A stretch of DNA of 64,000 bases, from contig CACWOX010000003.1 of assembly GCA_902762615.1 (NCBI GenBank), positions 1 to 64,000 of the forward strand, given 5' to 3'. The notes under the pieces were generated by a model. The model did no database searches, had not been told where the DNA came from, and worked only from the letters and a program-made list of their open reading frames with translations. Source of the DNA: an uncultured Ruminococcus sp. GTDB taxonomy: Bacteria; Bacillota; Clostridia; Oscillospirales; Acutalibacteraceae. Both the position numbers and the translations under genes were made by a program. Shown here piece after piece: positions 3,399 through 43,495 of this stretch. The first letter of the stretch is position 1. Every line of letters begins with the position of its first letter.

Positions 3399-3788
3399 TA
3401 GGCGATTGTAAAAGTAAATGGAAATTTATAGAAGTGTGGAGTTTTTTAAAAGTGTGGAGTTTGGAGTGTGGCGTGTGGAGTTGATGAGCGCCTATCGGCG
3501 CTGGAATAAAGAAACGCTTCGCTTCTTGGTTGGAAGTGTGCCACTCTGCTTATAACTGTAATTTATTTCCACGCAAAAGTCCAATAGTAAAACCGGCAGT
3601 CATTTCTAAGAAGTGTAGCGTTTTATATTCTAAGGCGCGTATTTTTCCCAGGCGCCTTCCTTCACTCCACACTCCAAACTCCACACTCCACACTTTATAA
3701 ATTCTCATTTATCGGAGAAGATACAGCTTCCAATACAAGCGCGAACCCGACGTGTTTTTGCTATTATTAGTAGTTTTACAATCGCCTA
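3399..3788. mobile_element. MITE-like element with 15-bp TIRs and 11-bp target duplication
   Basis: A 390-bp non-coding insertion separates gerAA from gerAB. Its ends are perfect inverted repeats, TAGGCGATTGTAAAA (3399-3413) and TTTTACAATCGCCTA (3774-3788). The 11 bases AATGAAATGAT flank it on both sides (3388-3398 and 3789-3799) as an exact direct repeat. Inside are GTGTGGA-type repeats (about 3436-3482) that can pair with ACTCCAC repeats (about 3663-3695), plus small hairpins at 3486-3502 and 3630-3656. No transposase is encoded. Removing the element and one duplication would leave about 21 bases between gerAA and gerAB, as expected for an operon. Bases 3501-3549 recur identically at 47474-47522. 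Confidence 0.85.
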
Positions 3789-8040: not shown

Positions 8041-8071
8041 ATAATAAAATTATGTTGTGGAGGTTTTTGCA

Positions 8072-8872
8072 TTGAATATAGTAAAGAAGCCAATTAAATC
8101 CTTTAAAGGCGACGGCAAATTTGTTTACGTCTGCTACTCACTCGAAGACAGCGAGGTTGTCTTCCCCATTCTGACAAAGCTCGACGCCAACAGATACCGC
8201 GTCAGATATGACGAATGCAATCAGGAAGAGGTCAAGGTTGACGCCCTTCGCAAGCACAATATCAAAAACTGCGAGGTGTTTTTGGCGTTTCTTTCGCAGA
8301 AGGCTATGCAGTCCCTCTATGTGGTCAATCAGCTTGAAATGGCGCAGTCATTTGAAGCCAATATCTTTCTGGTGTATCTCGACGGTCAGGAAACTGCCGA
8401 CACTGCCGCCCGTATGTTCGGCGCCGACGTCAAGGGCATTCGGCTCGATGAAATTGACGACGATATCCTGATGGAGGTCATGGATCAGCTGCTCACCGAC
8501 TGCCAGGAGCCGGAAAAAATCGAAGAGCGCGTACTTACATACGATGAGTTGCTCGACGAGGTGTATCCCAATCAGGAAAACGCCAACAAGGAATCGTTTG
8601 TCAACAACACCGACCAGGAAAACGAAACAATTAAGAAATCCGCCGCCTCCGCTGCCAAAGCCGCTACTGCCGCCAAAAAGCAGAAGCGCCAGAAAAACGG
8701 AAGATCCTTTTTAAACGCGGTGCTTGTCGTCGGCGTTATGGCACTCATTGCTTTGTTGATTTATCTTTTCTTCGGTGAGCAGATCAGTGAAATGCTGAGC
8801 GAGGAAAATCAGATGGTCAATTTCATTCCTGCCATGCGCAGTGTCTCGCGTCTTTTCGGCATGATTCTCTGA
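8072..8872 (+). CDS. TIR-domain protein with C-terminal membrane anchor
   Basis: TTG 8072 is chosen because GGAGG (8059-8063) lies 8 bases upstream. The 266-residue product begins with a TIR-like domain: KFVYVCYSLEDSEVV (about 16-30) matches the first strand and box, RVRYDE (43-48) the second, and FLAFLSQKAMQSLYVVNQLEMAQ (70-92) the region holding the catalytic glutamate of TIR NADases, here probably Glu89. A charged linker with an Ala/Lys-rich stretch (about 190-210) leads to one transmembrane helix near 217-237 and a short predicted outside tail. No recognisable defence partner is adjacent. Enzymatic activity is not proven by sequence. Confidence 0.8.
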   Translation: MNIVKKPIKSFKGDGKFVYVCYSLEDSEVVFPILTKLDANRYRVRYDECNQEEVKVDALRKHNIKNCEVFLAFLSQKAMQSLYVVNQLEMAQSFEANIFLVYLDGQETADTAARMFGADVKGIRLDEIDDDILMEVMDQLLTDCQEPEKIEERVLTYDELLDEVYPNQENANKESFVNNTDQENETIKKSAASAAKAATAAKKQKRQKNGRSFLNAVLVVGVMALIALLIYLFFGEQISEMLSEENQMVNFIPAMRSVSRLFGMIL

Positions 8873-39081: not shown

Positions 39082-40131
39082 ATGAAGAAAATCCTTGTCA
39101 TTGACGACAACAAGACCACGCTCGCCATGGCTAAACAGGCTATCGGCGATGAATATTCTGTCATTGCCGTTATCTCGGGATATCAGGCGCTCAAATTTCT
39201 CGAGCGCGACACGCCCGATCTGATTCTGCTCGATCTGAATATGCCCGAAATGGACGGCAAGCAGACGATGAGAAAAATCAAGTCCAACGAAAAATGGTGC
39301 GATATTCCCATTATCGTGCTGACGGTGGAGAATAATCCGCAGACCGAGGTGGAGTGTCTGGAAATGGGAGCCGTTGACTTTCTCGCAAAGCCCTTCGTCC
39401 CGCAGGTCATGAAGTCGCGTATTGCCCGTGCCATCGAGCTGGAGGATTACCGCATGCGGCTCCAGCTTGACAACGAGAAGAAGCGCGCCCAGCTCGAAAA
39501 AATGAAGTCGCAGATCATCATGGTGCTTGCCAATATGATAGATACACGCGACGAGGTGACGGGCATACACGTTCACCGCGTCAGCTCCATTGTGGAGACG
39601 CTGGTGCGCAGAATGAGGGACGAGGGCATGTATCCCGAATTCCTCGACGACCGCTACGTCACCAGCATTACGTTAGCCGCGCCTCTGCACGACATAGGCA
39701 AGATCAAGATACCCGATTCGGTGCTCAAAAAGCAGGGCGACCTCACCGAGGACGAATTTGAGCTGATGAAGACCCACACCATCGAGGGCGCAAAGATCCT
39801 CGAGGAATGCGCCAAGCAGATCGACGACAATTATTACCTGATGCTGGGCAAGGATATGGCGGCATATCATCACGAATGGTGGAACGGCAAGGGCTATCCC
39901 TACGGACTCAAGGGTATTAAAATCCCCTTCTGCGCCCGTGTGCTGGCGGTAGCCGACGTATTCGACGCGCTGGTGAGCAAGCGCAGCTACAAGCAGCAGA
40001 TGTCCTTTGATCAGGCGTTCGATATCATCAAAAAGGGCAGCGGCGGTCACTTCGCCCCCGAAATCGTCAATGTGTTCCTCTCCATTCGCCCCGAGATAGA
40101 GCGCGTCGCCCTCCTCGGCATCGACGACTGA
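39082..40131 (+). CDS. Response regulator with HD-GYP phosphodiesterase domain
   Basis: ATG 39082 follows GGAGGAG. The 349 residues start with a receiver (VIDDNKTT, phospho-acceptor in LLDLNMPEMDG near 53, AKPF near 117), then a short helix and an HD-GYP domain. The domain shows HVHRVSSIVE, APLHDIGKIKIPDSVL (HD near 202), KTHTIEGAKIL, YHHEWWNGKGYPYGL (GYP near 271) and VADVFDALVSKRSYK. HD-GYP enzymes degrade cyclic di-GMP. Gene order suggests control by the preceding hybrid kinase. Confidence 0.93.
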   Translation: MKKILVIDDNKTTLAMAKQAIGDEYSVIAVISGYQALKFLERDTPDLILLDLNMPEMDGKQTMRKIKSNEKWCDIPIIVLTVENNPQTEVECLEMGAVDFLAKPFVPQVMKSRIARAIELEDYRMRLQLDNEKKRAQLEKMKSQIIMVLANMIDTRDEVTGIHVHRVSSIVETLVRRMRDEGMYPEFLDDRYVTSITLAAPLHDIGKIKIPDSVLKKQGDLTEDEFELMKTHTIEGAKILEECAKQIDDNYYLMLGKDMAAYHHEWWNGKGYPYGLKGIKIPFCARVLAVADVFDALVSKRSYKQQMSFDQAFDIIKKGSGGHFAPEIVNVFLSIRPEIERVALLGIDD

Positions 40132-40166
40132 AGCGCGGCGCATTAGCCCGGCTCAAAAGAATAAAG

Positions 40167-40209
40167 AAAAAAGCAGCTTCCCGTAAAAGCAAGCGGGGAG
40201 CCGCTTTTT
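40167..40209. terminator. Bidirectional terminator, recurrent GCGGCT family
   Basis: AAAAAAGCAGCTTCCCG and CGGGGAGCCGCTTTTT form the stem. An ATACGCTT-like tandem repeat follows at 40217-40236. Confidence 0.8.
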
Positions 40210-40237
40210 ATTATTTATACGCTTATACGCTTGTACG

Positions 40238-40330
40238 CTAATTCAAAAAACGGTGCAGGAAGTCTTTGAAGACGGGTTCCCATGCGGATTCGTTGTGAAT
40301 GCCTTCGGGAGAGATGACTTCCTTTCTGTT
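40238..40330 (-). pseudogene. 3' remnant of an esterase/alpha-beta hydrolase gene
   Basis: On the minus strand the last 30 residues of an open frame read NRKEVISPEGIHNESAWEPVF then KDFLHRFLN and a stop. A Gly-x-His-(N/D)-x-x-x-Trp pattern near the C-terminus, followed by a FLxxFL helix, is typical of COG2819/enterochelin-esterase-type hydrolases, where the His is catalytic. Upstream of about 40335 the similarity is lost, and the frame runs into the promoter region of the DUF927 gene. I infer a truncated gene. The rest of 40132-40499 holds only the terminator, octamer repeat and promoter elements. Confidence 0.5.
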
Positions 40331-40420
40331 TGATATGACAGCACAAAAATTATGCACAGTCAATGGCGAATTTGTATTTTTCCGCGCCCCGCACACAACG
40401 GCGCTCCCTTTCTCTTTGCA

Positions 40421-40484
40421 TTGAATTGCAGTACGCCCCTGTGATAAGATGAATGTGTACAAAAATAAGAGCCTGTACAGGCTC
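40421..40484 (+). promoter_or_regulatory. Possible promoter and 16-bp palindromic operator of the DUF927 gene
   Basis: TTGAAT (40421-40426) and TAAGAT (40445-40450) are 18 bases apart. A perfect palindrome GAGCCTGTACAGGCTC lies at 40469-40484, near the expected transcript start and just before the ribosome-binding site. It could be an operator or a hairpin in the leader. Confidence 0.45.
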
Positions 40485-40499
40485 CAAGGGGGCATTGAA

Positions 40500-42233
40500 T
40501 TGAATCAATCAACAAAGAACTTCGCAAGGAGCGACGAGGAAATCATCGCTATGACAGAGAATTACCGCTGTGAGCTGGAGACGCTCTACGGCTTCGGCGA
40601 ACCGCTGCCCGATACCGGTAATTGGCTGGTGGACAGGGACGGCGTGCGAACCACACGCGAGCTTCCCAACGGCGGGGTGAAGGTCGTCACCGCATGCCGC
40701 GCCCCGCTGGCGGTCACCAAGCTGATCGAAAATGCCGAGACGGGCTTGCACGGGGTGGAGCTTGCCTTTAAGCTGCGCGGAATGTGGCATTTTATAGAAT
40801 GCGCCCGCTCGGAGATTGCCGACAGAAGCCGCATCATTCAGCTGGCAGACCGCGGACTTCCCGTCACATCGGAGACCGCAAGGGCGATGATCACCTATCT
40901 CGACGACTTTATCGCCTGCAACCTCGATTTCATACGCCGCGAACAGTCCATTAACCGTCTGGGCTGGTTTCGCGGCTGTTTTATTCCCTACAGCGACAGC
41001 ATCAGGCTTGCCGAAAGCAGCGGTCTGCGGGGCGTCATTCGCAGCGCGGGCAGCCTACGGGCGTGGCGGGAGCACGTGGTCGCGCTGCTCGACGGCAATA
41101 CCATGCTTAGGCTCTATCTGGCGGCGAGCTTTGCCTCTGCCATCATCGAGCCGCTGGGTCTGCAAAATTTCGTTGCGCACCTCTGGGGACGCACGGGTTC
41201 GGGCAAGTCGGTGGCGCTCATGCTGGCGGCTTCGGTGTGGGGCGAGCCGGACGGCAGGCTGTTCGGCACCATGAACGGCACCCTCAATTACATGCAGTCA
41301 CAGGCGGCGGCGCTGCGGTCGGTTCCGCTGTGTCTGGACGAGCTGCAGACCGTCAGGGACAGCTTCGGCAATTACGACAAGCTGATCATGCAGCTCGGCG
41401 TGGGCGTGGGCAGAGGAAGAGCCGACCGCGACGGCTCCGCCAGGAAAACCAACGAGTGGCACAATACTGCCCTCTTCACAGGCGAAGAGCCGCTTCTCAA
41501 GCCCGAAAGCGGAGCAGGCGCCGTCAACCGCGTGCTCCAGCTCTGCGTGGACGACCTGCCGGGAAATATTATTTCCAACGGCGGCGAGACGGTCGCTGTG
41601 ATCAAGGAAAATTACGGCGTGGCAGGCGCGATGTTCGTCAGCGGACTTCTGAGGGACGGCTCCCGCTGCGACGAGATCATTGCCGCTCTCAGGGGGAGAT
41701 ACAAGGATCATCTCAGCGAGATATTGCAGGCGGCTCCCACCTCCGGCAAGCAGGCTGCGATACTGGCGGCGCTGCTGGCAGCCGACGAATTCGCCGAAAT
41801 AACGGTCTATCACACGGGCAATCCGCTCACTCCCCGCGACGTGATGCATTATGCCCTGACGTCCGACGACATATCCAAGCCCAGACGCGCTATGGATTAC
41901 ACGCTCAACATGATATCCGTTCATCAGAACGACTTTCAGGGGGTGTACCGGAAGTCGGACGGCACGGTAAGCGACGGCTGGGGACATCAGCCCGGCGGCA
42001 TGATATTCGGCAAGCTGACTGACAGCGCGGCTTATATCAACAAAAGCGTGCTTGTCAGGTGGCTGGAGGAAGGCGGCTACTCCTTCGACGCGGTCAAGAA
42101 GGAATGGGCGCAATGCGGCTTTTTACAGAAAAATGCCGCAGGCAAATATTGCTGCATGCCGCCCAAAGGAATGAACGGCAGCTTTATTAAGCTGCATCTG
42201 AAACACGACACGGAATCACCTGAAATTACCTGA
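40500..42233 (+). CDS. DUF927-domain helicase-like P-loop ATPase
   Basis: TTG 40500 has AAGGGGG (40486-40492) 7 bases upstream. The 577 residues match DUF927 proteins found in phages, plasmids and integrated elements, considered replication ATPases. Features are QSINRLGWFRGCFIPYSD (about 140-157), Walker A WGRTGSGKSVAL (about 229-240), a Walker B-like VPLCLDELQTV (about 275-285), and GVGVGRGRADRDGSARKTNEWHNTALFTGEEPLL, a post-Walker region ending in a sensor-like segment. There is no primase domain. The gene stands alone without integrase or capsid genes, and its stop codon lies inside an iteron-like array. Confidence 0.85.
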   Translation: MNQSTKNFARSDEEIIAMTENYRCELETLYGFGEPLPDTGNWLVDRDGVRTTRELPNGGVKVVTACRAPLAVTKLIENAETGLHGVELAFKLRGMWHFIECARSEIADRSRIIQLADRGLPVTSETARAMITYLDDFIACNLDFIRREQSINRLGWFRGCFIPYSDSIRLAESSGLRGVIRSAGSLRAWREHVVALLDGNTMLRLYLAASFASAIIEPLGLQNFVAHLWGRTGSGKSVALMLAASVWGEPDGRLFGTMNGTLNYMQSQAAALRSVPLCLDELQTVRDSFGNYDKLIMQLGVGVGRGRADRDGSARKTNEWHNTALFTGEEPLLKPESGAGAVNRVLQLCVDDLPGNIISNGGETVAVIKENYGVAGAMFVSGLLRDGSRCDEIIAALRGRYKDHLSEILQAAPTSGKQAAILAALLAADEFAEITVYHTGNPLTPRDVMHYALTSDDISKPRRAMDYTLNMISVHQNDFQGVYRKSDGTVSDGWGHQPGGMIFGKLTDSAAYINKSVLVRWLEEGGYSFDAVKKEWAQCGFLQKNAAGKYCCMPPKGMNGSFIKLHLKHDTESPEIT

Positions 42234-42271
42234 AATTACCTGAAATTACCTGAAATTACCTTGAAATTACC
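42221..42271. repeat. Direct decamer array TGAAATTACC, iteron-like
   Basis: Four exact head-to-tail copies (42221-42260), a fifth after one extra T (42262-42271) and a partial sixth. The first repeat encodes the last residues of the DUF927 protein. Confidence 0.95.
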
Positions 42272-42338
42272 TTGAAAGTTTTCAACAATCATCTCGGAAC
42301 GCTCTCTGGAAGAGCCTTGCGGGGATTTTAAAGTGTTG

Positions 42339-42431
42339 AAAATTACCTAATTACCTTTTTTATGTTTATAGATATATATATATTATTATATATAGCTCTC
42401 TATAGTAAGAATTTAGGTAATTAGGTAATTT
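42339..42431. other. AT-rich core bounded by a 17-bp inverted repeat, origin-like
   Basis: AAATTACCTAATTACCT (42339-42355) and its exact reverse complement AGGTAATTAGGTAATTT (42415-42431) flank a nearly pure A/T stretch (about 42356-42395). The same ATTACC core is used in the arrays on both sides, in opposite orientations. Together with the DUF927 gene this resembles an iteron origin with an unwinding element; function is inference. Confidence 0.6.
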
Positions 42432-42466
42432 CAGCCCCGATTTCAGGCATTTGCGGGGCATTCAAG

Positions 42467-42510
42467 GGTAATTCTGAGGTCATTCTGAGGTAATTACGAG
42501 GTAATTTTGA
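42467..42510. repeat. Undecamer array GGTAATTCTGA in reverse orientation
   Basis: Four 11-base units: GGTAATTCTGA, GGTCATTCTGA, GGTAATTACGA, GGTAATTTTGA. They read as the complement of the 42221 array, making the region roughly symmetric about the AT-rich core. Confidence 0.9.
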
Positions 42511-42535
42511 GGGGTATTTCAACGTTCTGACGGTA

Positions 42536-42580
42536 ATTTAAAAAGCGGCTCCCTGTCCATCAGACCGGAGACCGCCTGTT
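42536..42580. terminator. Degenerate member of the recurrent GCGGCT terminator family
   Basis: AAAAAGCGGctcc and GGAGaCCGCC can pair weakly between convergent genes. Confidence 0.45.
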
Positions 42581-42596
42581 ATCACTGTGTGCGTGT

Positions 42597-42634
42597 ATAG
42601 TGTGGAGTGTGGAGCTTTTAAAAGTGTGGAGCCT
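42597..42634. repeat. Short GTGTGGA repeat
   Basis: Three GTGTGGAG-like units, as found within the element at 3399 and at 47430-47456. Confidence 0.8.
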
Positions 42635-43495
42635 TTATTCATCAGTCTGATTGTAGAGCTGCTGCGCGGTTTGCCTGTCGCCTGTCAGTTCGATGAGCGC
42701 TCCCGCCTGAAACGTGGCGGAGAGGGAGCCGGGGACCTTGCAGGCGGCGTTGGCTACGACCCTGTATTTCTCCTTGCCGGCTTCTTCGGCTCTGAGAGTG
42801 GACTCCGCGCCAAAGACAAGATTGCCTGTGGCGATGTGATAATCGCTCGAAATAATGGCAAGCTGCGTCACCTGCGGATATTGGTTGGTGAGGATTCCGA
42901 GGGTGTATCTGGCATTCTGCGCGGTGGTAAGCGATCTCTTTTCGACTATTATGCGTTCGCTGTCAATGCCGTTTTCAACGAGCCATTCCGCCATTTTTCC
43001 GGCTTCGGTCGCAGTCTCGTCTGCAATCGCCGTGGGTCCTCCGGTGCAGACGATAAGGGCGTGAGGATACTTCTTGGCGCTTTTTTTGACCACCTTGAGT
43101 CTTTCGATCAGCTCGTCCCTCATCGTGCCGTCGGCATTCAATTGATAGCCCAGCGCCACCATGCACAATTCGTCGGTGTCGGGCAGACCGTCCGGCAGCA
43201 CCTTGTAATGGAGCGGGAGGCTGTCGTTTGATTCCTTCCAGAGGGAGAGAATACTTCTCCATTTCGCGGCAATGACGGGATTCTTCCCATCAAGCTCCTC
43301 AAAGAGCCGCTCTGTCTTTTCTTCGGCTTCTTCGCCGCCCTCTGCGTAACTGAGAATGATTTCCTCGGTGACGGTCTTTATGCCGCGTTCCGTGGATTGC
43401 GTACCGTCGTCATTTCCCTTGCCGCAGGCACAGCACGCCCACACCGTGCAGAGCGCAACCGCTGCACTGATGATTCTTACGATGGACTTCTTCAA
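42635..43495 (-). CDS. YdcF/SanA-family (DUF218) lipoprotein
   Basis: TTG 43495 has AAGGAG 9 bases upstream. The 286 residues begin with a signal peptide and lipobox-like CCAC (about 18-21), a linker of about 60 residues, then a DUF218 fold: MVALGYQLNADGTMRDELIERL, LIVCTGGP, TEAGKMAEWLVENGIDSERIIVEKRSLTTAQNARYTLGIL and IISSDYHIATG. Relatives such as SanA and YdcF affect envelope properties by unknown chemistry. Confidence 0.85.
   Translation of the reverse strand: MKKSIVRIISAAVALCTVWACCACGKGNDDGTQSTERGIKTVTEEIILSYAEGGEEAEEKTERLFEELDGKNPVIAAKWRSILSLWKESNDSLPLHYKVLPDGLPDTDELCMVALGYQLNADGTMRDELIERLKVVKKSAKKYPHALIVCTGGPTAIADETATEAGKMAEWLVENGIDSERIIVEKRSLTTAQNARYTLGILTNQYPQVTQLAIISSDYHIATGNLVFGAESTLRAEEAGKEKYRVVANAACKVPGSLSATFQAGALIELTGDRQTAQQLYNQTDE

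Follow-up and report, generated by a model that had tools for sequence, protein, structure and literature searches.

The window (the whole stretch of 64,000 nucleotides of contig CACWOX010000003.1, from an uncultured Ruminococcus sp., that was analysed) very probably carries a SaPI/PICI-type replication module stranded in the bacterial chromosome. The module consists of an intact gene for a DUF927 helicase (rep) and, beginning at the 3' end of that gene, two oppositely oriented sets of repeats that flank an AT-rich core (Table 1). We propose that the product of rep would be a self-loading AAA+ helicase whose C-terminal helix-turn-helix (HTH) would bind the AATTACC iterons at the gene's own 3' end, that helicase rings would assemble at both repeat sets, and that the rings would melt the intervening core and thereby initiate replication. 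The module would descend from a satellite or a prophage. The same genome holds related bare origins at three other loci, and at one more the remains of a gene tail; these are probably traces of one element family.

Table 1. Features of the rep gene and the putative origin, in positions of the window.
Feature	Position	Strand	Remarks
DUF927 / Cch-HTH initiator helicase gene (rep), predicted, intact	40449..42233	+	594 codons
Walker A GRTGSGKS	41187..41210	+	Walker B LCLDE, then TGE / NR motifs downstream
Cch-type helix-turn-helix domain, residues 480-565	41886..42143	+	Pfam PF18662; expected iteron-binding part
Left outer iteron array	42214..42272	+	five exact TGAAATTACCT and one degenerate copy; overlaps the 3' end of rep
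Left spacer	42273..42339	.	
Inner-left iteron pair	42340..42356	+	8-bp step; left arm of perfect 17-bp inverted repeat, AAATTACCTAATTACCT
AT-rich core, presumed melting site	42357..42414	.	
Inner-right iteron pair	42415..42431	-	right arm of inverted repeat, AGGTAATTAGGTAATTT
Right spacer	42432..42466	.	
Right outer iteron array, degenerate	42467..42539	-	GGTAATTCTGA, GGTCATTCTGA, GGTAATTACGA, GGTAATTTTGA, later GGTATTT and GGTAATT

The helicase gene, its repeats and their surroundings

The earlier note had assigned the gene to DUF927, and the Pfam scan bears this out (PF06048, E 3.5e-38), adding at the C-terminus the domain named 'Cch helix turn helix' (PF18662, E 2.9e-7). The AAA+ helicase motifs are all intact, and residues G247, G252, K253, D297, G345, E346 and R361 are invariant in an alignment of 11 homologous sequences. 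The nearest solved structures are PDB 8tch, a SaPI 'pathogenicity island protein' (E 5.2e-23), and PDB 5dgk (E 4.1e-6), listed as 'Active helicase', which we take to be SCCmec Cch. The protein also matches the primase/helicase family PHROG 8841 (E 1.4e-115) and, in part, the Cch1 equivalog NF047345 of NCBIfam, with 51.2 bits, below the cut-off of 700 bits. An initiator of the RepA/Pi type found with iteron plasmids was considered and rejected, since the only Pfam families of rep are DUF927 and HTH_56. A perfect 16-bp palindrome, GAGCCTGTACAGGCTC, occupies positions 40469-40484, 20 bp past the point where the DUF927 frame has its first ATG; it may be an operator, and the true start of rep may lie downstream of it.

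Direct reading and repeat finders both place exact copies of TGAAATTACCT at 42221, 42231, 42241, 42251 and 42262, in steps of 10, 10, 10 and 11, so the five decamers that had been noticed starting within the 3' end of the gene are there; the second of them contains the TGA stop codon of rep (42231-42233). The perfect 17-bp inverted repeat said to bound an A/T stretch was likewise found, enclosing a core of 58 bp, and A+T amounts to 87% across the 60 bp that separate the innermost repeats. The inner pairs are stepped by 8 bp, the outer repeats by 10-11 bp. The claim of four undecamers in the opposite orientation holds for the presence of the array but not for its regularity: among the 11-mers at 42467-42510, one of four is exactly GGTAATTCTGA, and the other three are 82% matches. 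A further GGTAATT begins at 42532. These repeats are real and far above chance. With at most one mismatch, AAATTACCT occurs 28 times in the window (9.5 expected), and a stretch of 700 bp around the stop codon has seven AATTACC to the left of the core and six GGTAATT to its right; in both counts, none of 100 shuffles was as high. Short runs of repeats of the GTGTGGAGT / GTGAAGTGTG type, some of them inverted pairs, are found between other genes of this genome as well (window 3400-3700 and 42594-42640; L002 1320-1380).

The neighbours of the module are chromosomal, with SecA, a histidine kinase and a metal-transport ATPase among them. The 36 ORFs of the window that were scanned against Pfam, with small ORFs covered in part, include no integrase or capsid gene, as the earlier note had it, and no repressor, excisionase, packaging or interference gene, recombinase or primase. 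Since there is no primase gene among them, replication would lean on the primase of the host. Neither a repressor nor an excisionase is encoded in the 317 bp upstream of rep, and no pair of direct repeats of note, such as attachment sites would provide, surrounds 40449-42540. Because the integrase, repressor and excisionase that accompany the modules of relatives are missing here, the module presumably cannot leave by itself.

Other observations were made along the window. Between a response-regulator gene and rep, a minus-strand frame (40238-40340) reads like the C-terminal part of an enzyme whose gene is broken, and may mark damage at the insertion site. A search for an empty site by way of the right-hand neighbour gene (DUF218, presumably YdcF-like) was uninformative, as the gene belongs to a paralogue family without synteny. 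Downstream of a gene for a peptide chain release factor, at a distance of a few hundred bp, lies a possible defence gene, which encodes a TIR-domain protein (Pfam TIR_2, 8057-8869).

Kinship with known replication modules

According to PMC6092414, a PICI origin lies immediately 3' of rep and has two sets of iterons with an AT-rich region between them; a cloned rep-ori is shown there to replicate, and the layout is stated to be unshared by other known bacterial replicons. PMC7581432 relates Cch, which contains DUF927, to the Rep of SaPIbov1, and states (citing Ubeda et al. 2007) that the C-terminal domain of SaPI Rep recognises an iteron origin directly downstream of rep. By analogy with SaPI Rep and Cch2, as PMC7581432 presents them, the HTH domain of the window protein would be expected to bind the iterons.

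The module of the window shares with the SaPI/PICI rep-ori, as these papers describe it, the DUF927-type initiator helicase, the position of the origin immediately 3' of its gene, and the two iteron sets about an AT-rich region, and by every testable feature it almost certainly belongs to that kind. It differs in its AATTACC iteron, in the lack of integrase, repressor, excisionase, primase and packaging genes among the scanned ORFs, and in the bare origins elsewhere in the genome. The whole element does not qualify as a PICI, because genes for integrase, repressor, excisionase and packaging are missing among the 36 ORFs. The resemblance extends to SCCmec Cch (pattern 1) through DUF927, the Cch HTH, the match to 5dgk and the partial match to NF047345, but the last of these scores under its cut-off, and no recombinase is among the scanned ORFs. 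The alpha protein of P4 is also a helicase-initiator, with iterons at ori and crr, but it belongs to a different protein family. The earlier note had read the region as an initiator/helicase gene with an iteron origin. With rep related to SaPI Rep and SCCmec Cch, and with the layout equal to the published PICI/SaPI one, that reading is well supported and is probably the best one for the module.

The same layout was sought behind the DUF927 genes of 30 loci, the one in the window and 29 others that came from IMG/VR, from genomes of the same family, and from named phages and plasmids. The stretch from 100 bp before to 600 bp after each stop codon was searched for a 7-mer repeated on the left with its reverse complement repeated on the right. 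None of 100 shuffles was as good at 21 of the 30 loci, 1-6 were at five, and 33 or more were at four (L046, L061, L064 and L071, the clear failures of this test). At least two copies on each side were present at 24 of 30 DUF927 gene ends vs 8 of 172 control gene ends, and at least three at 14 of 30 vs 1 of 172, where the controls leave out L034 6710, itself a DUF927 origin, and where the 30 loci are not independent of one another (the origins of L047 and L048 are 82% alike). Five of the six loci that failed the simple count (L058, L061, L062, L064 and L071) have what appear by eye to be degenerate versions. Homologues without repeats, which the earlier note would have counted against its reading, are thus not the rule.

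Each origin has a motif of its own (TGTGGGA, GTCGGAC, GTTCCCT, GTAGACA, GGTAACC, TGTCACA and others). As the DUF927 genes of phages and plasmids are likewise followed by the layout, again with private motifs, the layout would seem to belong to this helicase family as such. Roseburia phage Jekyll, R. gnavus phiRg507T2_3, FP_Epona, THSA-485A, E. callanderi p1_EUCAMar and G. stearothermophilus pSJEF4-2-2 carry a homologous helicase, followed in most of them by a two-sided iteron origin; they differ from the window in their iteron motifs, and the DUF927 modules of phages and plasmids often adjoin genes for SSB, primase or nuclease. PT1028, which we take to be a SaPI-like satellite, has a homologous protein and then an AGTTCCC origin. 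The spacers between outer and inner repeats share a word like CCGCATGAATAC / ACCCGCATAAATA at L047, L048, L049, L053, L057, L059, L061 and L071; the window origin is without it. The window origin and its core have no match in the phages, plasmids, viral contigs and genome contigs searched, collections that may lack the window genome or its close kin. A scan with the rep protein gave no relative in the genome contigs and two distant ones in the viral contigs.

Relatives of the module range from complete elements to remnants. The element at G013:C53, whose protein is 57% identical to that of the window, has a tRNA-Met attachment sequence, an integrase, an XRE regulator, an HTH_17 (excisionase-like) gene, rep and the origin. 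At G002:C44, an integrase, an XRE regulator, rep and the origin adjoin guaA (named by eye), and G013:C31, with genes resembling those for SSB and primase, is by eye a prophage. The origin of G013, used as a query, found one at G006:C128 that is 87% identical over about 170 bp, in a genome (86% complete) with no match to DUF927. There the origin stands between two attachment sites in a unit of 489 bp, with neither rep nor int. The two sites (L121 6394-6418 and 6883-6907) are copies of the 3' end of tRNA-Met, the first within a stretch that resembles a tRNA but was not called by ARAGORN, and the same 3'-end sequence also borders the integrase of G013. At G015:C92, a called tRNA-Met and the same terminator come with no more than the left array; a gene tail together with the left array remains at G008:C162 and at G013:C114; and G000:C61 is a relic of the gene-tail or left-array sort. 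Origins of the TGTGGGA type occur once in each of four matching genomes, a 29-bp match in G042 being too short to count. A sequence of about 46 bp to the right of the G013 origin (L034 6953-7000) recurs at 83-91% in six genomes of the genus, often near the ends of contigs (G000:C19:148-194 and G000:C44:685-730 among them), and is perhaps a transposon end. Matches to positions 254-300 of the G013-origin query were set aside as another dispersed repeat.

Bare origins and how they may have spread

The window origin (C3) has four matches in its own genome: C9:62357-62628 (88%), C15:12493-12722 (82%), C1:125976-126167 (83%) and C38:8004-8064. At C9, C15 and C1, the left side, the core and the right side are present and the gene is absent; C38 has only the last 90 bp or so of rep and the repeats. 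The earlier note would have yielded to the same repeats at unrelated loci as simple intergenic expansions. Three gene-less intergenic copies do exist, but they are whole units of repeat, core and repeat. At C1, the gap between murC and a nitroreductase gene is 367 bp vs 10-132 bp in all nine relatives with the gene, and at C15 the starts of M23 and nuoE are 856 bp apart vs 443-567 bp in seven of eight measurable relatives, the eighth (819 bp) holding an unrelated small ORF (the genes of both pairs were named by eye). Since the gene pairs are closer in nearly all relatives checked, the origins at C1 and C15 look like lineage-specific insertions of about 300 bp. C9 adjoins an S24 repressor, an HTH gene and a sigma-like phage-type regulator. 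C9, C15 and C1 are flanked by neither a target-site duplication nor an attachment pair of note. We took the terminator-like sequence AAAAAGCGGCTCCC, which occurs to the right of both C3 and C15, for a recurring terminator and did not count it as part of the element.

Identity among the copies is concentrated at 42341-42403, the inner-left pair and most of the core, where C9 and C15 match the window origin at 62 of 63 positions and C1 at all 63; among the remaining 257 aligned positions, 200, 160 and 147 are identical in C9, C15 and C1, respectively (57-78%). The Fisher p values for this difference (1.3e-5 for C9, 1.6e-10 for C15, 6e-14 for C1) are indicative only, because the sites were taken as independent and the borders of the segment were chosen after the alignment had been seen. 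The inner-right pair is altered in C15 and C1. The constancy of the 63 bp could reflect selection acting on the core, gene conversion, or a recent spread from donors that differed. The core is in none of 17 other genomes of the genus (two weak AT-rich matches were set aside), and there is no clear match in 397 other genomes of the family, a weak negative, because the two candidates scored per genome lost the known copies at C15 and C1.

The chances are about even that the bare origins go back to complete elements that had inserted at several sites and later lost everything but the origin by deletion. The piece of rep at C38, the gene-tail or left-array relics in G008, G013:C114, G015 and G000:C61, and the phage-type regulators beside C9 are what one would expect of such decay. 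But three of the four extra copies stop near the borders of the arrays with the whole origin kept, which random deletion would not readily yield, and the core is far better preserved than the rest. Perhaps they are instead a non-autonomous family, units of about 300 bp copied in trans by the solitary helicase or its relatives and inserted between genes. We regard this as doubtful, even though it would account for the three dispersed, gene-less but whole copies, for the widened gene pairs at C1 and C15, for the 63 bp that stayed nearly identical while the remainder diverged, and for the attachment-bounded unit of G006 in a genome with no match to DUF927. A MITE-like family would have defined ends with a target-site duplication, and no flanking direct repeat of note is seen; no recombinase was found that would move C9, C15 and C1; no clear core match came from the genus and family genomes; and the TGTGGGA type keeps to a single origin in each of its four genomes. 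Also, the iterons of C1 and C15 have decayed or changed, so that their binding by the window helicase is doubtful.

The earlier note had left the module as a relic, a satellite or a domesticated origin. It is quite improbable that the host retains the helicase to act at several chromosomal core sites, for example in local over-replication under stress. The frame and motifs of rep are intact, its codon use is host-like (r 0.93, vs 0.82 and 0.81 for the mobile relatives in G013 and G002 against the same host gene reference), and the core is almost invariant across four sites, but this type of origin is found in one of 18 genomes of the genus, no host gene context points to a function, and the right inner repeats are altered in C1 and C15. 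Intact frame and host-like codon use fit a domesticated module as well as a relic, and the two cannot be told apart computationally; a stranded relic is the likelier, and a stranded module remains the best fit. Most improbable by far would be that the repeats have no role in replication and are a transcription terminator or simple repeats between genes. The inner inverted repeat does fold strongly as a single strand (z -6.65), but DUF927 genes of phages, plasmids and islands are followed by the same layout with motifs of their own, the iterons are stepped by 10-11 bp on both sides, and there is no Rfam match in 40000-43000.

A stranded rep-ori module, as we read the window, adds to a well-described kind, and DUF927 origins in general offer a ready set of pairs of helicase and iterons for studying how specificity changes. 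It is an unlikely but conceivable extension that bare two-sided origins are a class of non-autonomous mobile units, 'origin-only satellites of satellites'. Such units, of a few hundred bp, would contain an origin and no more, at times with attachment sites; they would spread with a borrowed helicase and recombinase of a DUF927 element and would form here a multi-origin chromosome system with a solitary helicase gene. A small literature search found no paper on origin-only satellites or decoy origins, which is not proof of novelty. The origin-only copies in this chromosome, with their nearly frozen 63-bp core, and the 489-bp unit of a relative raise the testable question of whether an origin can be a mobile element all by itself.
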